64,000 nucleotides of DNA from Archangium primigenium (GTDB taxonomy: Bacteria > Myxococcota > Myxococcia > Myxococcales > Myxococcaceae), in assembly GCF_016904885.1 (NCBI RefSeq), contig NZ_JADWYI010000001.1, forward strand, positions 5,394,001-5,458,000. Reading direction: 5' to 3'. Position 1 is the first letter of the stretch; every line of letters begins with the position of its first letter. A program made the position numbers and the translations under genes. The notes beneath the pieces were generated by a model. It saw only the letters and a program-made list of their open reading frames with translations, had not been told where the DNA came from and searched no databases. Below, one piece after another: positions 8,038-57,462 of the stretch.

Positions 8038-10602
8038 ATGATCGACTCCCAGCAACTGTTCGACTCCGCCCCGGCCCCCCTCATGGTGCTGGATCGCGAC
8101 TTCACGTTCGTCGCCGCCAACCAGGCCTACCTCCAGGCCACCGCGCTGCGGCGGGACGAGGTCCTGGGCAAGAACGTCTTCGAGGTGCTGCCCGAGGACG
8201 AGGCCCCCGCGGAGGCCCCGGGCGCGCGGCGGCTGCGGGACTCGCTCGAGCGGGTGCGCTCCAGCCGGCTGCCGGATCTGCTCGCCCTGGCCGTCCAGCC
8301 CGTCACCCGCCGCACCGAGATGGGCCCGGTGGTCGAGAAGCGGCTGTGGACCTACTCGCACCGGCCCCTGCTGGACGCCTCGGGGGAGGTGGCCTTCATC
8401 CTCCAGCACGCCGTGGACGTGACGGCCCTGCGCGCCTCGGAGTCTCCTGGCGCGCGGCTCGAGGGGGTGTCCTCGGAGCAGATCGCGGCGTTGATTGGCC
8501 AGGCGTGGACCGTCCAGGAGCACAACCAGAAGCTGGACCACGAGCGCCTCTTCCTGCGGCAGCTGTTGGACCTGCTGCCCGGGTGCGTGGGCGTGCTGCG
8601 CGGCCCCGACTTCGTGTTCGATCTGGCCAACGCCAGCTATCTGCCCTACCTCAACTTCCGCAACGTCGTCGGCCTGCCGCTGCACAAGGCGCGCCCCGAG
8701 CTCGAGGGCAACAAGGCCGTCTACGACATGCTCGAGCGCGTGCTCTACAAGGGCGAGACGATCGTCATGCGCGGGTTCAAGGTCCCCGTGCGCAAGACGG
8801 TGGACGGGCCCCTCGAGGAGATCGTCGCCGACTTCGAGTACCGGCCCGTGCGCCTGCCGGGCGGCCCCGTGCTCGCCGTGCTCATCTACGGCCAGGACGT
8901 CACCGAGAAGACGCGCGCCGAGGCGCAGGTGCGCCACTACCAGGAGCACCTGGAGGAGCTGGTGCGCGAGCGCACGCGCGCGCTCGAGGAGAGCGAGGCC
9001 GAGCGGCGCAAGACCGAGGCCCAGCTGCGCCAGTCCCAGAAGATGGAAGCGGTGGGCAAGCTCACGGGCGGCGTGGCGCACGACTTCAACAACCTGCTCC
9101 AGGTCATCGCCGGCAACCTCCAGCTGTTGCATCGCGACGTGGCGGGCAACGAGCGCGCCCTGGCCCGCGTCCAGACGGCCACCCGCGCGGTGGAGCGCGG
9201 CGCCAAGCTCGCCTCGCAGCTCTTGTCCTTCGCGCGCCGCCAGCCCCTGCAGCCGCTCGTCGTCAACTTGAGCCGCCTGGTGCGCGGCATGGACGACATG
9301 CTGCGCCGCACCCTGGGCGAGGAGGTGGAGCTGGAGACCGTGGCCGCCGGCGGGCTGTGGAACACCGCCATCGATCCCAACCAGCTCGAGAACGTCATCA
9401 TCAACCTGGCCGTCAACGCCCGCGACGCCATGAACAGCGCGGGCAAGCTGACGATCGAGGTGGGCAACACCGTGCTCGACGAGCGCTACTGCCGCCAGCA
9501 CCCCGAGGTGCTGCCCGGGCACTACGTGCTGTTGGCCGTGTCGGACACCGGCGGCGGCATGTCCCCCGAGGTGCTCGAGCGCGCCTTCGAGCCGTTCTTC
9601 ACCACCAAGCCCGAGGGCCGGGGCACGGGCCTGGGCCTGAGCATGGTGTACGGCTTCGTCAAGCAGAGCGGCGGCCACATCAAGATCTACAGCGAGCTGG
9701 GGCACGGCACGACCATCAAGCTCTACATGCCCCGCGCCCTGGAGGCCGAGGCCTCCGAGGCCCAGGTGCTCACCGGCCCCATCGAGGGCGGCACGGAGAC
9801 CATCCTCGTGGTGGAGGACGACGCCGAGGTGCGCGCCACCGTGGTGGAGATGGTGGGGGAGCTGGGCTACCGGGTGCTCAAGGCGGTGGATGCCCAGAGC
9901 GCGCTCATCATCCTGCAGAGCGGCGTGCCCGTGGACCTGCTCTTCACCGACGTGGTGATGCCCGGCCCCGTGCGCAGCCCGGACCTCGCCCGGCAGGCGC
10001 GCGTGCTGCACCCGGACATCGAGGTGCTCTTCACCTCGGGCTACACGGAGAACGCCATCGTCCACGGCGGACGGCTGGACGCGGGCGTGCAACTGTTGAG
10101 CAAGCCCTACAGCCGCGAGGACCTGGCCCGGAAGCTGCGCCAGCTCATCAACCACCGGCAACAGAAGCTCGCGGTGCGCGCCCCGGCGCCGCGCCCCGAG
10201 CCGGTGTCCGCGCGCGCGCCCGTGCCGCCCGCGTCACGTCGGCTGCGCGTGCTGTTGGTGGAGGACGACGAGGACGTGCGCTCGTCGGCCTGCGAGTTGA
10301 TGGACCTGCTGGGCCACGAGGTCCTGGCCGTCACCAGCGCCGAGGAGGCCAAGGGCGCCCTGGCCGCCAGCGGCTTCGACGTGCTGTTCACGGACGTGAC
10401 GCTGCCCGGGGCCTCGGGCGTGGACCTGGCGCGCGAGGTGACGGCGCGCAAGTCCGGGCCCCGCATCATCCTCGCCTCGGGCCACGGCAACGTGGCGCTG
10501 CCCCAGGGCGAGGCCCCGCTGGAGGGCGTGGTGGTGCTGCCCAAGCCCTACTCGATGCCGCAGATCCAGCAGGCCCTGGAGCAGGCGGTGGCGCTCCCCT
10601 GA
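8038..10602 (+). CDS. PAS-containing hybrid sensor histidine kinase with two receiver domains
   Basis: 854 residues from ATG 8038; a GTG at 7921 would add 39 low-complexity residues. Order: PAS (about 1-130, APLMVLDRDFTFVAANQAYL), second PAS-like domain (about 180-310), coiled coil, HisKA with GGVAHDFNN (phosphoacceptor His348), HATPase (N box NLAVNARDAM, G boxes DTGGGMS and GRGTGLGLSM), receiver 1 with Asp638 in LLFTDVVMPG, receiver 2 with Asp786 in VLFTDVTLPG. No transmembrane segment, so it senses a cytosolic signal or ligand through PAS. Two receivers suggest an internal phosphorelay. No response regulator gene is adjacent. The stop lies one base from the next gene's stop. Confidence 0.92.
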   Translation: MIDSQQLFDSAPAPLMVLDRDFTFVAANQAYLQATALRRDEVLGKNVFEVLPEDEAPAEAPGARRLRDSLERVRSSRLPDLLALAVQPVTRRTEMGPVVEKRLWTYSHRPLLDASGEVAFILQHAVDVTALRASESPGARLEGVSSEQIAALIGQAWTVQEHNQKLDHERLFLRQLLDLLPGCVGVLRGPDFVFDLANASYLPYLNFRNVVGLPLHKARPELEGNKAVYDMLERVLYKGETIVMRGFKVPVRKTVDGPLEEIVADFEYRPVRLPGGPVLAVLIYGQDVTEKTRAEAQVRHYQEHLEELVRERTRALEESEAERRKTEAQLRQSQKMEAVGKLTGGVAHDFNNLLQVIAGNLQLLHRDVAGNERALARVQTATRAVERGAKLASQLLSFARRQPLQPLVVNLSRLVRGMDDMLRRTLGEEVELETVAAGGLWNTAIDPNQLENVIINLAVNARDAMNSAGKLTIEVGNTVLDERYCRQHPEVLPGHYVLLAVSDTGGGMSPEVLERAFEPFFTTKPEGRGTGLGLSMVYGFVKQSGGHIKIYSELGHGTTIKLYMPRALEAEASEAQVLTGPIEGGTETILVVEDDAEVRATVVEMVGELGYRVLKAVDAQSALIILQSGVPVDLLFTDVVMPGPVRSPDLARQARVLHPDIEVLFTSGYTENAIVHGGRLDAGVQLLSKPYSREDLARKLRQLINHRQQKLAVRAPAPRPEPVSARAPVPPASRRLRVLLVEDDEDVRSSACELMDLLGHEVLAVTSAEEAKGALAASGFDVLFTDVTLPGASGVDLAREVTARKSGPRIILASGHGNVALPQGEAPLEGVVVLPKPYSMPQIQQALEQAVALP

Positions 10603-49446: not shown

Positions 49447-49902
49447 ATGCCGCGAATCTACAAACCGGGCTCGTTCTTGAGAATCCCCCTGGCCGACGGT
49501 TCTTTCGGTTACGGCAGGGTGCTCAAAATGCCGCATGAGGCCTATCACGACTACAGGACCGACACTCCAGATTCAGACCTGGATCGAATCGCCTCCACGC
49601 CCATCCTCTTCAAGATCATGGTTCGCCATATGGAGGAGAGAGCCTGGGAACTCATTGGGTGGAGAAAGCTGGAGGAGCAGTCTTCTCAACCAATCGTCCA
49701 GTTCATGCAGGACATTGGGAACTTCCGCGACTGCACGATCTTCGACACCGTCGGCAATGAGAGAAGCGCGGAGCCCCAGGAGTGTGTCGGGCTTGAGCGC
49801 TCGGCTGTCTGGGAAGAGGTGGGGGTTGAGGAACGCCTGCTCGATGCCTTCACGGGGCGGCCCAACGCCTCGGTGGAGCGCTTGAAGGTGCGCCTGAAAT
49901 AG
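49447..49902 (+). CDS. Imm26-like immunity protein
   Basis: 151 residues starting two bases after the toxin stop. YKPGSFLRIPLADGSFGYGRVL is the start of the Imm26 family, with the GYGRVL strand typical of it. The remainder is acidic and helical-beta mixed. It presumably binds and inactivates the toxin tip encoded just upstream; the pair would be made together. Both are intact, which makes this the only complete cassette of the four in the window. Confidence 0.75.
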   Translation: MPRIYKPGSFLRIPLADGSFGYGRVLKMPHEAYHDYRTDTPDSDLDRIASTPILFKIMVRHMEERAWELIGWRKLEEQSSQPIVQFMQDIGNFRDCTIFDTVGNERSAEPQECVGLERSAVWEEVGVEERLLDAFTGRPNASVERLKVRLK

Positions 49903-51536: not shown

Positions 51537-54500
51537 TCATGAGCCCTTCGCGTTCGACTGCTGCGCGGCGGCGAGTGATGTGACGAGGTTCACGAGGGGC
51601 TCTCCATGCTCCGCATAGGTCAGCATTTCGAGGGGAAGCCCCTTCAATCGTGAACGCATCCGATCGCGCTCCGCCTCGCGCACGAGGACGTAATGCGGTC
51701 CTCCAGTGCCCTGGAAGGTCTCCTCCAACCACCTGAGCTGATCGCCGAAGCTCGTGTCATCGAAGCTGAATCCGACGAAGAGCAGGGTGTGGGAGGCGAG
51801 CAGGTAGCGCAGCGACGAGAGCGCGGCCTCGTAGTGGAGCACCCTATCCTTGCTGTCCGGGTACAAGCGGCTGTAACCGTCCGGCGTGAGGATCAGGCCC
51901 GTCGAATTCGCGATGGAGCCGTGCAGATGCCAGAGGGTCGGATGCTCGATGGTGCTTTGCAGGAGCTTCATCAAACCGTCGGGCGCCTGGACGTCCCAGT
52001 AGCGCAGGTCCTGCCACTGCGGACACGCCCAGTGAAGGACACGATCGTAGTTCGTGGTCACGACGAGCTTGCTGCCAAGGCTCCAGAGGGCACGGGCGAG
52101 CGCGAGGCTCGACTCCTGCGCCCGGTGACGAGGCGGATCGAACAACTCGCCGAGCATCTTGTACCAGGTCGCCCCCAGGCCCTCCCGCGCGGCCTGGGCC
52201 GCATCGAGGTAGTTGGGCGTCTTCTTGGTCAAGGCGCCACGCACCGCATCCGCATCGCCCTTGAGATTCTCCGCCTCCAGTCGCTGCGCCGCGGTGAACA
52301 GCAGCGACTCCCAACTTGGGAAGAGTCGCTTGCCCGGATGGGCGGAGTCCATGACGGCCATGGAGGCGCCGGCACCGACGAACGGGATGACGCGTCCCGC
52401 GCCGAGCGCCTCCCGCAGACTTCGGGGAATCGAGATGTCCGAAGGGACAGCGCTCGGAGGCGCGAGCGCCGGCGTCCGGATGAACACCGTTTGTGAACTC
52501 TTGGGAAGCGGGCCCACGTGATGCGGAGCCGCGGCGGTGTCCACCGGTGCGGCGGGAGCGACAGGCAGTGTTTTCGGAGGGGCCCCAGCAGGCGCCTGAG
52601 TGGACGTGGTGGCCGCGAAGAACGCTTGCGCCCGCTTGTCGAAGGGAACACGAATCGAGGCGCGATGGTTGGAGGTGACGCCCCGGAGGCTTGACTCCAC
52701 GCCCTTGGGTCCCAGCCAGAGGCCCTCGGCCAGGAATACCTCGACCCGGCCACACTCCTCGCAGGTTCGTGCCGCGACGATGGGCGCGAGGCAGAGCGGA
52801 CCCCGATCCTCGGCGATCAGGTAGCACCAGTCACGCGCGAGACGCGCCTCGGTGCTCCCGTGGTGGATGGGAAAATGTTCGGCGATGCCTTGATGGCTGT
52901 AGAACGCATAGCGGATGTCCTCGTCATCCGTGTCGAGTGACTCGATCTCCGCGACACTGACGAGTGACATGTGCTTCAACGGCCCGAGCATCACGAGAAA
53001 ATCATGGAGGACCTTGCTGAAGAGTCCCTCCTGTTCACGGTAGGCATCGTCGGACAGGGTGACGCCTTGCCCGATGAGCCGCTCTTGTTCGCGAACCGCC
53101 CAGTGGACTCGCTCGGCGACACCGGAGCGCTCGCCATACTGTCGGGTCAACTGACGCAACATGCCGACGAGAGGGGAGGCGGGCACGAGCGCGAGCAATG
53201 GGGCGAGCTGGACGGCCAGTGATTCCCAGGTCTTGAGAGGGAGCGGTCGGCCGGTATGCGGGGCGAGCAGGATCGAGGCCTGGCCGAGGACGCGTGCCTC
53301 GTCACTCTCGCGCAACAGGGCGATCTCCAAGGCCACCACGAAGCGGAGCGCGGACTCCAAGGCGTCCACGATGGCTTTGAAGCGGGTGAACGCCGTGCGC
53401 TGGGCGGCGATCAGCGCACAAGGCGCGGCGAGCGGAAAGGGGAACTCGGGCCGCGCGCCTTGCTGAGTGGCGCGTCCCGCGTCATCCAGGAGTTGAACCG
53501 CGAGATGATCCAAACACCGCTCGCTCAACTTCACGACCTCGTCTCGCGCGACGAACGCCGTGCGCAATGAGCGCGTCAATCTTCCTTTCGCGGCCTCTGG
53601 GATGGGCCGTGAGGTCCATGCGATCCTCACCGCGTTGATCACGTCCTGGGCCGAAGTCGACGTGTCACCGCCGTCCAGCGCCGCGAGGATGTAGCGTTCC
53701 CTCCAGCTCCCGAGCAGCGTGGTGAGCCCAATGACTTTTTCAACGTCCTGTTCCAATTCGAAGAGCCACGATTCAAAGCCCGAGGATCCCAAGATGTCGA
53801 TGATGTCGCGTTCGCCCGCGACCTCGAACGCCAGGACCGGGCCCGGAGTGGCTCTGTTGAGGTTGCGCCGCACCAGCGCCAGTCCACCAATGGGGCGACG
53901 GGGAATCCGTGCGGGCGGGCTCGCGACGGGGCCCGCATCGCTCACGGACGCACCTGCCCCGACGACTCGGTTGCGGCCCGTCTTCTTCGCCTTGTAGAGG
54001 TTGGCGTCCGCCCGTTTGATGAACTGCAAGGGCTCCACCATGTCGGGCATCAAGCCCGCCACCCCCAGGGAGATGGTGACGGGAATTTCCTGATTCTCGA
54101 AGACGAACTGCTTCTGCTCAATGCACCAGCGGAGCTTCTCCGCGAAGAGGAGGGCTCTGTCGCCCCCGTCCTCGGGGATGATGACCGCGAACTCCTCGCC
54201 TCCGTAGCGCGCGAAACACTGATCCTTGCGCATCAGTCGCTTGAGCGTCTGCGCCAGCTCGCGCAGCACGTAGTCGCCCGCCAAGTGGCCGTGCACGTCG
54301 TTGATCTTCGTGAGGAAGTCGATGTCGAAGAGGATCAATGTCAGGGGGCGGCCATATCGATGGCACCGGATCATCTCGCGCTCCAGGTGCTCCAGGAAGT
54401 AGCGCCTGTTGTTGATGCCGGTCAGACCGTCCTGGATGGTGAGCGTGTAGATGGTCTCGTGGTACTGCAGCTCCACGTTGTCGCCGGTGAGGAACTTGAA

Positions 54501-55019
54501 GACCGCACCCCCCACCTTGAGGAGATCGCCACTGCGCAGGAGCGTCGGCTGCATCACTTCCTGATCGTTCAGGTAGGTGCCGTTGGTGGAGCCCAGGTCC
54601 TGCACGAACATCCGCCCCTGATGGCGGAGGATGCGCGCATGCCTGCGCGAGACGTTGTCGAGGTCCACCACGATGTGGTTTCCCTCTTCACGCCCGATGG
54701 AGAACTCGAGGTCGAGGAGCGTGTACTTCTTGCCCAACTCCGGCCCATGGATCTGCACGAGGCAGCATTCCGCGTCGACCGGGGTCACCAGCTCCTTGAT
54801 GTTACTGACACGGGAGTACCTGGTGTTGCGCCCCTCGTCTTGGGTATGCGAGGCATCGGAGTCGACACGCGGTTGGATGGGTTTGGCCGCGGGCGTGGCC
54901 TTGTCGTTGCCTCGGGGCAGTGGGGCGCCGCCGGCAAGGGTGTCTTCAGGACGCCCGTCATCGGACTGGGCCGCATTCACTGTGGCCGGTGCTGTTCCTG
55001 GGACTGAGGGGCGCGTCAT
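51537..55019 (-). CDS. FHA-GGDEF-SIR2 fusion protein, candidate nucleotide-signalling NADase
   Basis: 1160 residues from ATG 55019 (GGAG nine bases upstream; ATG 55034 also possible). FHA: about 84-178, with SIGREEGN, SRRHARI and GSTNGTYL. GGDEF: about 190-353; metal site FDIDFLTKINDVHGH and active-site GGEEF (273-277); the RxxD inhibitory site is absent. Middle: about 390-800, helical, with an odd beta hairpin (GSWRERYILAALDGG) and a CxxC pair at 753-756, the helix plus zinc ribbon look of kinase C-terminal modules. SIR2: 870-1160, with VGAGAS (881-886), VTTNYD (Asn990, Asp992) and HLHGS (His1033). The fusion suggests FHA-triggered cyclic nucleotide synthesis and NAD hydrolysis in one chain; the role is inference. 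Cytosolic. Confidence 0.85.
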   Translation of the reverse strand: MTRPSVPGTAPATVNAAQSDDGRPEDTLAGGAPLPRGNDKATPAAKPIQPRVDSDASHTQDEGRNTRYSRVSNIKELVTPVDAECCLVQIHGPELGKKYTLLDLEFSIGREEGNHIVVDLDNVSRRHARILRHQGRMFVQDLGSTNGTYLNDQEVMQPTLLRSGDLLKVGGAVFKFLTGDNVELQYHETIYTLTIQDGLTGINNRRYFLEHLEREMIRCHRYGRPLTLILFDIDFLTKINDVHGHLAGDYVLRELAQTLKRLMRKDQCFARYGGEEFAVIIPEDGGDRALLFAEKLRWCIEQKQFVFENQEIPVTISLGVAGLMPDMVEPLQFIKRADANLYKAKKTGRNRVVGAGASVSDAGPVASPPARIPRRPIGGLALVRRNLNRATPGPVLAFEVAGERDIIDILGSSGFESWLFELEQDVEKVIGLTTLLGSWRERYILAALDGGDTSTSAQDVINAVRIAWTSRPIPEAAKGRLTRSLRTAFVARDEVVKLSERCLDHLAVQLLDDAGRATQQGARPEFPFPLAAPCALIAAQRTAFTRFKAIVDALESALRFVVALEIALLRESDEARVLGQASILLAPHTGRPLPLKTWESLAVQLAPLLALVPASPLVGMLRQLTRQYGERSGVAERVHWAVREQERLIGQGVTLSDDAYREQEGLFSKVLHDFLVMLGPLKHMSLVSVAEIESLDTDDEDIRYAFYSHQGIAEHFPIHHGSTEARLARDWCYLIAEDRGPLCLAPIVAARTCEECGRVEVFLAEGLWLGPKGVESSLRGVTSNHRASIRVPFDKRAQAFFAATTSTQAPAGAPPKTLPVAPAAPVDTAAAPHHVGPLPKSSQTVFIRTPALAPPSAVPSDISIPRSLREALGAGRVIPFVGAGASMAVMDSAHPGKRLFPSWESLLFTAAQRLEAENLKGDADAVRGALTKKTPNYLDAAQAAREGLGATWYKMLGELFDPPRHRAQESSLALARALWSLGSKLVVTTNYDRVLHWACPQWQDLRYWDVQAPDGLMKLLQSTIEHPTLWHLHGSIANSTGLILTPDGYSRLYPDSKDRVLHYEAALSSLRYLLASHTLLFVGFSFDDTSFGDQLRWLEETFQGTGGPHYVLVREAERDRMRSRLKGLPLEMLTYAEHGEPLVNLVTSLAAAQQSNAKGS

Positions 55020-55124
55020 TTCTAGCGACTCCATCGCGGATGCGACTCCACGATCCAACTCTCGACGCCGAGCATAGCCAGTTGGCGGAGGGCGAAAAAG
55101 CGAGCCGCGGGTCGAACGAGGACA

Positions 55125-55160
55125 AGAAGCCCAGCAACCCCTTGAGATTGCTGGGCTTCT
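55125..55160 (-). terminator. Terminator downstream of guaB1
   Basis: AGAAGCCCAGCAA (55125-55137) and TTGCTGGGCTTCT (55148-55160) are perfectly complementary over 13 bases with a 10-base loop. It lies 18 bases after the guaB1 stop on that strand and is followed there by TTGTCC, a weak U-rich stretch. It also sits 106 bases upstream of the FHA-GGDEF-SIR2 start, so it separates the two transcripts. Confidence 0.8.
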
Positions 55161-55177
55161 GAATTGCCGGGCGCCCC

Positions 55178-56617
55178 TTACCAGCTGGTGCGCACGGGGC
55201 GGCCTTCCTCGTAGCCCGCCTGGCTCTGAGTGCCCACCACCGCGTTGTGGTGGAAGTCCTCCAGGGTGCGCGCGCCCGCGTAGGTGCACGCGCTGCGCAC
55301 CCCCGCGACGATCTGATCGAGGATGTCCTCCACGCCCGGCCGCTCGCGGTCCAGGTACATGCGCGAGGTGCTGATGCCCTCCTCGAACAGCTCCTTGCGG
55401 GCACGCTCGAACAGGGACTCGCTCCGGGTGCGCGCCTTCACCGCGCGCTGCGAGGCCATGCCGAAGTTCTCCTTGTAGAGCCGCCCGTCGTTGTCGCGCA
55501 GCGTGTCCGCGGGGCTCTCGTAGGTGCCCGCGAACCACGAGCCGATCATCACGCTGGCCGCGCCCGCCGCGAGCGCGAGCGCCACGTCCCGGGGGTGGCG
55601 CACGCCGCCGTCCGCGCAGATGTGGCGGCCGAGCTTCCGGGCCTCCTCGGCGCAGTCCAGCACCGCGGAGAACTGGGGCCGACCCACGCCCGTCATCATC
55701 CGCGTGGTGCACATGGCGCCCGGGCCCACGCCCACCTTCACCAGGTCCGCCCCGGCCGACACCAGGTCCCGCGTGCCCTCGCGGGTGACGACGTTGCCCG
55801 CCATGATGGGCACGGTGGGAGAGAGCGCGCGCACGAGCTCCACCGTCTCGAGCATCTTGCGCTGGTGGCCGTGCGCCACGTCGATGACGAGCAGGTCCGT
55901 CCCCGCGCGCAGCAGGGCCTCGGCCTTGCCCTTCACGTCCCCGTTGATGCCGATGGCCGTGCCGATGAGCAGCTGGCCCCGGGGGTCCAGAGCGGGCTTG
56001 TAGAGCGTGGAGCGCAGCGCGCCCCGGCGCGTCACCACGCCCACCAGCCGGCGGCCCTTCACCACGGGCGCGCACGACAAGCGCTTGCCCGCGAGCTGCT
56101 CGAACATGGACTCCAGGGGCGTGCCTTCCTCGAAGGTGAGCAGCTCGGTGGACATCACCCGGTGCAGCTGGGTGAAGCGGTCCACGTCCTGGGCGTCGTT
56201 CTCCGTGAAGATGCCCAGGGGCTCCTCGTGCTCGTTGACGACGATGACGGCGCCATGGGCGCGCTTGTGGATGAGGTTGAGCCCCTCCTGCACGGTGTCC
56301 CCGGGCCGCAGCGTGATGGGCGTCTCGTAGACGGGGTGGCGCGACTTCACGTAGGCGATGTTGCTCGCCACGATGTCCAGCGGGATGTCCTGGGGCAGCA
56401 CGGCGATGCCGCCCCGGCGGGCGATGGTCTCCGCCATGCGCTTGCCCGACACGGCTGTCATGTTGGAGACGATCAGGGGCAGGGTGGTGCCCACCTTGTC
56501 CGGGGGCGTCAGGTCCACGTCCAGGCGCGAGGTCACCTCCGAGCGGCAGGGCACCAGGAAGAGATCGGTGTACGTGAGATCGTAGGTGGGCTTCTGGCCA
56601 TCGAGGAACCGCATCAC
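55178..56617 (-). CDS. guaB1: GuaB1-type IMP dehydrogenase-related GMP reductase
   Basis: 479 residues. The IMPDH/GMPR barrel is split by a pair of CBS domains at about 94-210. Catalytic Cys303 is in GVGPGAMCTTRMMTG, followed by GRPQ, and the flap and Gly-rich loops are normal (CADGGVRHPRDVALALAAGA). Unlike classic IMPDH the length and sequence match the GuaB1 group, shown in mycobacteria to reduce GMP to IMP with NADPH. CBS domains suggest adenine/guanine nucleotide control. Starts at 56617 or 56614 (tandem ATG). It sits alone, with a terminator. Confidence 0.9.
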   Translation of the reverse strand: MMRFLDGQKPTYDLTYTDLFLVPCRSEVTSRLDVDLTPPDKVGTTLPLIVSNMTAVSGKRMAETIARRGGIAVLPQDIPLDIVASNIAYVKSRHPVYETPITLRPGDTVQEGLNLIHKRAHGAVIVVNEHEEPLGIFTENDAQDVDRFTQLHRVMSTELLTFEEGTPLESMFEQLAGKRLSCAPVVKGRRLVGVVTRRGALRSTLYKPALDPRGQLLIGTAIGINGDVKGKAEALLRAGTDLLVIDVAHGHQRKMLETVELVRALSPTVPIMAGNVVTREGTRDLVSAGADLVKVGVGPGAMCTTRMMTGVGRPQFSAVLDCAEEARKLGRHICADGGVRHPRDVALALAAGAASVMIGSWFAGTYESPADTLRDNDGRLYKENFGMASQRAVKARTRSESLFERARKELFEEGISTSRMYLDRERPGVEDILDQIVAGVRSACTYAGARTLEDFHHNAVVGTQSQAGYEEGRPVRTSW

Positions 56618-56703
56618 ACCCTCCGTGTCGGGAGCCGCACCCTACCGTCCCCGGGCGCGCGCGAGGGTGGAAACCCCCGGGGGGGCCGCGTATTTTGTCG
56701 CCC

Positions 56704-57462
56704 ATGAACGAGGCCGGAACGAGGGCGCCGGTGCTGCGCGTGAGCGGCCTGGAGAAGACGTACGGCGAGGTCCAGGCCGTGCGGGGCCTCACCTTCCAGG
56801 TGGCGCCGGGCGAGGTGCTCGGCCTGGTGGGGCCCAATGGCGCGGGCAAGACGACCACGCTGCGGTGTCTGGCGGGCATCCTGCCGCCCTCCACGGGCCG
56901 CATCTGGGTGGCGGGGTATGACCTGGCCCAGACGCCCGTGGAGGCCAAGCGCGCCCTGGCGTTCCTGCCGGACGAGCCCCGGCTCTTCGAGTACCTGTCC
57001 GTCTGGGAGCACCTGAACTTCGTGGCGCGCCTGTACGGCGTGGAGGACTGGGAGGCGCGGGGGCGGGCGCTCCTGGAGGAGATGGAGCTGACGGGCAAGG
57101 AGAAGGCGCTGCCCGGGGAGCTGTCGCGGGGGATGAAGCAGAAGCTGTCCATCGCGTGCGGATTCCTGCACGAGCCCCGGCTCATCATCCTGGACGAGCC
57201 GCTCACGGGGTTGGATCCCCTGGCCATCCGGCGCATGAAGGCCTCGCTGCGTCAGCGCGCGGAGGCGGGCACGGCGCTGGTGCTCTCCTCGCACCTGTTG
57301 CCGCTGGTGGAGGAGCTGTGCCACCGGCTGCTCGTCATCGCCGGCGGCCGGGCGGTGGCGCTCGGGAGCCTCGCGGAGATCCGCGCGCACCTGAGTGGGA
57401 GCGAGGACTCGGGCGCGTCCCTGGAAGAGCTCTTCATCCACATCACCCGCACGGCGCCATGA
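56704..57462 (+). CDS. ABC transporter ATP-binding protein
   Basis: 252 residues from ATG 56704. Walker A LVGPNGAGKTT, signature LSRGMKQKLS, Walker B RLIILDEPLTGLDP and the His switch SSHLLP are all present. It is of the ABC-2 exporter type (CcmA/NatA-like). It overlaps the permease start by four bases (ATGA), so the two form a complete exporter. Substrate unknown; candidates include lipids, antibiotics and other hydrophobic compounds. Confidence 0.93.
   Translation: MNEAGTRAPVLRVSGLEKTYGEVQAVRGLTFQVAPGEVLGLVGPNGAGKTTTLRCLAGILPPSTGRIWVAGYDLAQTPVEAKRALAFLPDEPRLFEYLSVWEHLNFVARLYGVEDWEARGRALLEEMELTGKEKALPGELSRGMKQKLSIACGFLHEPRLIILDEPLTGLDPLAIRRMKASLRQRAEAGTALVLSSHLLPLVEELCHRLLVIAGGRAVALGSLAEIRAHLSGSEDSGASLEELFIHITRTAP

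Follow-up and report, generated by a model that had tools for sequence, protein, structure and literature searches.

What can a bacterial polypeptide do that carries an FHA, a GGDEF and a SIR2 domain in one chain, and how did such a chain come about? The question is raised by a gene of Archangium primigenium in a 64,000-nucleotide stretch of contig NZ_JADWYI010000001.1 (positions 5,394,001 to 5,458,000; hereafter the window). The gene lies on the minus strand at 51537-55034 and encodes 1165 residues in one uninterrupted frame from a start ATG at 55034. FHA domains recognise phosphothreonine, SIR2_2 domains of the anti-phage type hydrolyse nicotinamide adenine dinucleotide (NAD), and the FHA-GGDEF cyclase DgcB gates prey invasion in Bdellovibrio. 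Our main result concerns the N-terminal half of the fusion, which is a close copy of the host's own DgcB and appears to have been renewed independently in more than one lineage; relative to it, the remainder of the gene is older and foreign in composition. Tentatively, we read the fusion as a sensor-effector conflict protein, most likely of the anti-phage abortive-infection kind, in which the DgcB copy would serve as a bait or docking module.

No FHA-GGDEF-SIR2 system was found described in the literature searched, the scope of which excluded subscription papers and preprints; a first-pass annotation of this DNA had likewise called the combination not a known described system. FHA-GGDEF proteins and SIR2 effectors are each already known, and we regard the fusion as a variant of the SIR2-effector conflict proteins whose sensor, copied from the host, is unusual. 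Surveys of the conflict systems of multicellular prokaryotes report FHA, GGDEF and inactive cyclase domains in modular conflict proteins and SIR2 among the effectors; the relevant passages describe neither an FHA-GGDEF-SIR2 chain nor the copying of a host DgcB (PMC7159879; PMC8195603).

Origin of the FHA-GGDEF half

The pairing of FHA with GGDEF is not new: it is that of Bdellovibrio DgcB, which has a solved structure, 6hbz (PMC6733907). Fusion residues 96-357 align to residues 9-275 of 6hbz, that is, to the whole FHA-GGDEF chain in collinear order (E 9e-51), and R115, S129, R130, S149, T150 and N151 of the FHA domain correspond to the DgcB phosphothreonine-binding residues R61, S75, R76, S95, T96 and N97, whose roles we take from the same study. 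The A. primigenium genome also holds a stand-alone FHA-GGDEF protein of 294 residues (G000:C1:8107608-8108489), orthologous to the Bdellovibrio DgcB-type proteins and 84-86% identical to the N-terminal half of the fusion. An orthologue of this DgcB is present in every myxobacterial genome examined and is vertically conserved.

Two further genomes of a second genus, G006 and G007, carry fusions. In a tree of DgcB-type proteins the partner of each fusion half is the DgcB from the same genome, to which the half is 85.6, 93.9 or 91.3% identical, as compared with 79-85% among the fusions themselves. Approximately unbiased (AU) tests reject monophyly of the fusion halves (p-AU 2.4e-6 for DNA and 7e-4 for protein) and do so in every partition: codon positions 1+2 (1e-4), position 3 (5e-4), the FHA part (2e-3) and the GGDEF part (7e-4). 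At genus-diagnostic sites the fusions carry the base of their own genus, with splits of 17:2, 4:13 and 3:16. The downstream parts differ in both age and composition. Synonymous divergence (dS) between the window fusion and that of G007 is 0.53 in the FHA-GGDEF half, compared with 1.18 in the middle and 1.04 in SIR2; between G007 and G006 the values are 0.27, 0.55 and 0.64. The G+C content of third codon positions (GC3) is 0.89-0.90 in the FHA-GGDEF half and 0.71-0.83 downstream in all three genomes, to be compared with 0.92-0.96 in the resident DgcB genes of these genera and 0.97 in guaB. The flanks of the three fusions are unrelated, save for a 152-bp upstream stretch (L039:7571-7722 and L040:12145-12296) that is 76% conserved between G006 and G007 and holds a short open reading frame (ASDQQxHSLA) in a different frame from the FHA start.

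The simplest history would start from an older middle-SIR2 gene that moved horizontally; in two lineages or more, the resident DgcB would then have supplanted its N-terminal half or undergone conversion with it. The first-pass annotation was right on the domain content and did not foresee this renewal.

The copied half has evolved under purifying selection relative to its own DgcB (dN/dS 0.13-0.39), and GGEEF, DID and the guanine-site Asn and Asp are intact in all three fusions. The inhibitory I-site motif RxxD is indeed missing from the GGDEF domain, as had been stated, with RKDQ at residues 269-272 in its place; the loss is not special to the fusion, since none of the 17 stand-alone myxobacterial DgcB orthologues compared has RxxD (they have RKEQ, RREQ or RKEE). 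All 17 share lysine K177 of DgcB, which two of the three fusions have lost; the window fusion has Thr there. The fusion thus shares the FHA-GGDEF chain, the phosphothreonine-binding residues and GGEEF with DgcB (Bd0742; PDB 6hbz/6hc0/6hc1) and the FHA:GGDEF proteins of Myxococcus xanthus, but it lacks the RxxD I-site, it adds an N-terminal extension and 800 C-terminal residues that comprise SIR2 and a degenerate second GGDEF, and it has the conserved tail TRVTK changed to TRYSR. The first Thr of that tail is kept and the second is Ser; either position may correspond to Bdellovibrio T14.

Domain architecture, relatives and effectors

The features of the gene, in window coordinates, are the following.

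51537..55034, minus strand: whole gene, FHA-GGDEF-pseudoGGDEF-helical-beta/CxxC-SIR2, 1165 residues (open frame; alternative ATG at 55019)
54837..55034, minus strand: N-terminal extension, residues 1-66, not in stand-alone DgcB, predicted disordered (alignment; predicted local distance difference test score, pLDDT, ~30)
53955..54830, minus strand: DgcB-derived half, residues 69-360 (85.6% identity to the resident stand-alone FHA-GGDEF protein)
54510..54701, minus strand: FHA domain, residues 112-175 (Pfam)
53967..54437, minus strand: GGDEF domain, residues 200-356 (Pfam; template modelling score, TM, 0.95 to 3ign)
54189..54203, minus strand: GGEEF active-site motif, residues 278-282 (motif inspection)
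54219..54230, minus strand: RKDQ at the I-site position, residues 269-272, RxxD absent (motif inspection, alignment)
53475..53903, minus strand: second, degenerate GGDEF-fold domain, residues 378-520, no GGDEF motif (structure model; VIA-align Z 11.8-13.5)
52971..53438, minus strand: helical block, residues 533-688 (structure model)
52650..52967, minus strand: beta-rich block with C758xxC761, residues 690-795 (structure model)
52437..52601, minus strand: Pro/Ala-rich, low-confidence linker, residues 812-866 (pLDDT ~30)
51564..52436, minus strand: SIR2 domain, residues 867-1157 (Pfam, PADLOC, PDB comparison)
52362..52385, minus strand: PFVGAGAS nucleotide-binding loop, residues 884-891 (motif inspection)
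52050..52052, minus strand: Asn995 of TTNYD, predicted catalytic (motif, PDB comparison)
51921..51923, minus strand: His1038 of HLHG, predicted catalytic (motif, PDB comparison)
55125..55160, unstranded: perfect 13-bp inverted repeat with a 10-nt loop, terminator-like, between guaB and the fusion gene

Much of what the first-pass annotation claimed for the chain holds. Its three domains are read in one frame, with Pfam matches that all exceed the curated cut-offs (FHA 112-175, 3.3e-19; GGDEF 200-356, 1.8e-40; SIR2_2 990-1130, 1.3e-22), and the catalytic residues that it reported are in place, namely GGEEF, DID (237-239), INDVHGHLAGD (from 244, hence IND/GHLAGD), GAGAS within 884-891, TTNYD (from 993) and HLHG (from 1036). 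It placed the start at the ATG at 55019, which is residue 6 of the 1165-residue protein, so its Asn990 and His1033 are N995 and H1038. Its positions were correct, with the minus strand left out, and its list of FHA, GGDEF and SIR2 missed about 440 intervening residues. Beyond the gene, this minus frame runs on without a stop to a total of 1899 codons (51537-57236), antisense to the gene of an ABC transporter and, in guaB, out of frame; this is an artefact of GC richness, not a longer protein.

Since the model of the full-length protein is poor (pLDDT 63, predicted TM score, pTM, 0.36, with a weak SIR2 part), we draw no claim on contacts between domains from it. A separate model of residues 378-836, built from six homologues (pLDDT 78, pTM 0.68), shows that residues 378-520 form a second GGDEF fold without the motif (Z 11.8-13.5 to many solved GGDEF domains), followed by the helical bundle and the beta block with CxxC. 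Foldseek and VIA searches with this model, mainly testing residues 378-520, listed no match for the helical and CxxC parts. An R-x4/5-H motif like that of HEPN proteins occurs in relatives (RDRLIGH in G007, RNRVTH in G103, RNQQAH in G088) and is lost in the window fusion (QERLIGQ, 650-656). The helical block has no Pfam HEPN match, so membership is unproven and the likeness is one of motif; a HEPN RNase acting as a second toxin is therefore unsupported.

The SIR2 domain is of the defence kind, as had been proposed: its closest PADLOC and PDB families are LmuA (3e-20), ThsA (1e-12; PDB 6e-5) and FAM118B (PDB 9e-10), with Dsr2 further off among the PADLOC models (4e-7). The GAG loop and both an Asn and a His at the catalytic positions are present, and the domain is predicted to be an NADase. 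Its nearest same-genus relative, 46% identical, forms the N-terminus of a SIR2-NACHT/STAND protein of 1664 residues (L042:9541-14532, plus strand). The GAGxS, TTNYD and HxHG motifs are shared with ThsA of Thoeris, DSR1/DSR2, the SIR2-type LmuA of Lamassu and human FAM118A/B; unlike all of these, the fusion has its SIR2 at the C-terminus, attached to FHA and two domains of GGDEF fold. Partners of the ThsA, DSR and LmuA systems were not found among the scanned neighbours or in the fusion chain. Assignment to Lamassu from the PADLOC match was rejected, as the scanned neighbours gave no PADLOC match to an LmuB SMC-type partner and the gene is flanked by guaB and small open reading frames. Thoeris was rejected as well, given no PADLOC match to ThsB (TIR) in the scanned neighbours and a protein that ends with SIR2, without a SLOG-type C-terminus.

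Relatives were sought in 96 genomes of the family and 195 of the phylum. The middle module occurs in only 6 of the 195, and fusions number three among the 96. The full domain order, which the first-pass annotation had proposed to look for in other genomes, is intact in G007 (1132 residues) and recurs in G006 with a single frameshift near residue 775 in a GC-rich stretch (L040 ~9817-9820, minus strand), which may reflect either a pseudogene or a sequencing error. With this order in both genomes, an assembly error or a chance frame is rejected. The other three carriers, Hyalangium versicolor (G041), a metagenome-assembled genome (MAG; G088) and a member of another family (G103), encode FHA, a degenerate GGDEF and the middle module; the protein ends after that module in Hyalangium and G088, and the contig of G103 stops inside the gene. 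All three keep FHA and have lost both GGDEF metal motifs, with FMLE/DGSVF, VELD/PAG-F and TSLD/GGGAL in place of FDID/GGEEF. In Hyalangium a SIR2 gene (L041:6083-7639, plus strand) lies 33 bp upstream on the same strand, encoding an N-terminal stretch that resembles a PD-(D/E)xK nuclease pattern (D...ExK), and beyond it stand divergent PtuA/PtuB genes of Septu (L041:3126-6010, minus strand; PADLOC E 3e-44 and 9e-40). In G088 a gene for a DUF676/PGAP1-like alpha/beta hydrolase lies about 50 bp upstream (L049:2643-3713, plus strand), a candidate alternative effector of the same sensor. This looks like one sensor module with exchangeable effectors (fused SIR2, separate SIR2 or hydrolase), a pattern typical of modular conflict systems, the themes of which those surveys set out (PMC7159879; PMC8195603).

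A whole-protein scan of genome contigs gave no relative, and one with the middle alignment gave only Hyalangium versicolor and one MAG. The viral contigs searched held no relative of the fusion and the plasmids searched only a distant SIR2. These comparisons are to be read with 7% estimated contamination of G041, the MAG status of G088 and three fusion sequences only.

Possible roles of the DgcB copy

If the fusion is a conflict protein, its C-terminal SIR2 would be the output, predicted to degrade NAD, and its older sensor core would be the degenerate-GGDEF/helical/CxxC block, which is paired in relatives with separate SIR2 or alpha/beta-hydrolase genes. The DgcB copy would act as the input, the middle block would transmit and SIR2 would kill. 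As bait or docking module, the copy might read the phosphorylation event of DgcB or dimerise with DgcB via GGDEF and FHA; a disturbed signalling state, for instance when an invader attacks DgcB, its kinase or its product, would then release SIR2. We infer this defence role and the bait or guard logic from sequence comparison. The patchy distribution (6 of 195 phylum genomes) and the unrelated flanks of the fusions are consistent with it. Three reasons, none of them proof, lead us to favour a bait or sensor over the cyclase product: the cyclases of the relatives are degenerate, the invariant lysine is lost in two of three fusions, and the matching to the host recurs. A bait or docking partner would have to be matched repeatedly to the cell's own DgcB; for an enzyme that makes a product there would be no such need.

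Plant NLR receptors with integrated decoys carry a copy of a host target domain. The fusion likewise joins an immune-type effector to a domain copied from the host's own protein, but it is not homologous to these receptors, and a bait role is read from the history of its sequence alone. We consider it possible, with less confidence than the conflict role as such, that this is an immune protein with an integrated host decoy, in which SIR2 would be guarded by a full DgcB copy kept host-matched by repeated copying, and attack on cyclic di-GMP (c-di-GMP) or phospho-signalling would lead to NAD loss. Should the copy prove to be a bait, the integrated-decoy principle of plant immune receptors would be in use in bacteria too, and it would leave a visible trace: an effector protein in which a host gene repeatedly overwrites the sensor half. 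That trace would be searchable genome-wide and would point to host proteins attacked by invaders, here DgcB. Even without a decoy, the literature searched seems to hold no description of this module, with its FHA, two GGDEF folds, helical block and CxxC block and with effectors that can be exchanged (SIR2, either fused or separate, or a hydrolase).

Several observations weigh against a bait. Only three fusion sequences exist. The copies of G006 and G007 share seven of seven derived bases and have mosaic site patterns (p-AU only 0.04), so they may descend from a single shared capture followed by partial conversions. Retention of GGEEF and purifying selection on the copied half are also predicted for an active cyclase. 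None of the window neighbours tested matches a PADLOC model; of the defence neighbourhood that had been proposed for checking, what appeared is the Septu pair beside the Hyalangium relative.

A serious alternative is neutral gene conversion between a gene and its near-copy, of which the re-copying from DgcB would be a by-product uninformative on function. The copies are near enough for recombination (89-93% identical in DNA), and the mosaic patterns of G006 and G007 suit it. Yet the direction is always from resident gene to fusion, with short DgcB branches that follow the DgcB phylogeny and long fusion branches. Two lineages or more would each have needed such a conversion, and the frame so copied is still open and under selection; as a full account it seems to us unlikely, although it survives better than the other alternatives. 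The self-contained device that the first-pass annotation had in mind, in which FHA, on reading phosphorylation, would turn on the cyclase and locally made c-di-GMP would activate the destruction of NAD by SIR2 or accompany it, is improbable in our judgement. In its favour speak the intact GGEEF, DID and guanine-site Asn and Asp of the three fusions, a degenerate second GGDEF that could serve as a nucleotide-binding relay, and the precedent of Bdellovibrio DgcB, where the GGDEF domain is activated by FHA and the protein's own phosphorylated tail acts as the switch (PMC6733907). Against it, the three relatives without a DgcB copy have a degenerate GGDEF and K177 is lost in two fusions, and the cell already holds many other GGDEF proteins, which would make c-di-GMP alone a poor private signal. 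One protein with these domains and catalytic residues thus stands, and a cyclase product as the working signal is weakened.

We give slightly less credence to a regulatory, non-defensive protein, whose SIR2 would be an NAD sensor or protein-modifying sirtuin tuning DgcB-type c-di-GMP signalling in the myxobacterial life cycle. DgcB is vertically conserved, c-di-GMP controls Myxococcus xanthus development (PMC4877007), and no known defence gene adjoins the fusion among the window neighbours tested; but three fusions in 96 family genomes, at different genomic places and with atypical GC3 and an anti-phage-type SIR2, make a very patchy regulator, and the neighbouring effector genes vary (SIR2 or hydrolase), with Septu next to that of Hyalangium. 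Least probable is a guard of the c-di-GMP pool resembling Panoptes, in which the cyclase product would silence SIR2 until it was freed by phage proteins that sequester cyclic dinucleotides: a palm-fold cyclase product can repress an effector (PMC12657218), cyclase and effector are in one chain here and the second GGDEF could bind nucleotide, but the relatives carry degenerate cyclases, many enzymes supply c-di-GMP, which is abundant, and no known nucleotide-binding output domain was identified in the fusion. Like the fusion, Panoptes (OptS/OptE) combines a lethal effector with a palm-fold cyclase related to GGDEF (PMC12657218); it differs in having two proteins, a cyclase of the mCpol family and a membrane effector, with no FHA and no host-gene copy.

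Genomic surroundings

In four relatives guaB stands directly before, or near, nth (endonuclease III), and in the window about 34 kb lie between the two (20940-55177), with the fusion gene at the edge adjoining guaB. The interval resembles ordinary chromosomal genes for the most part and holds no tRNA, so we do not call a mobile island (phage or integrative element). With no evident toxin partner identified, a homologue of Imm26 (Immunity protein 26; E 6e-13) lies two genes from the fusion at 49447-49902 on the plus strand.

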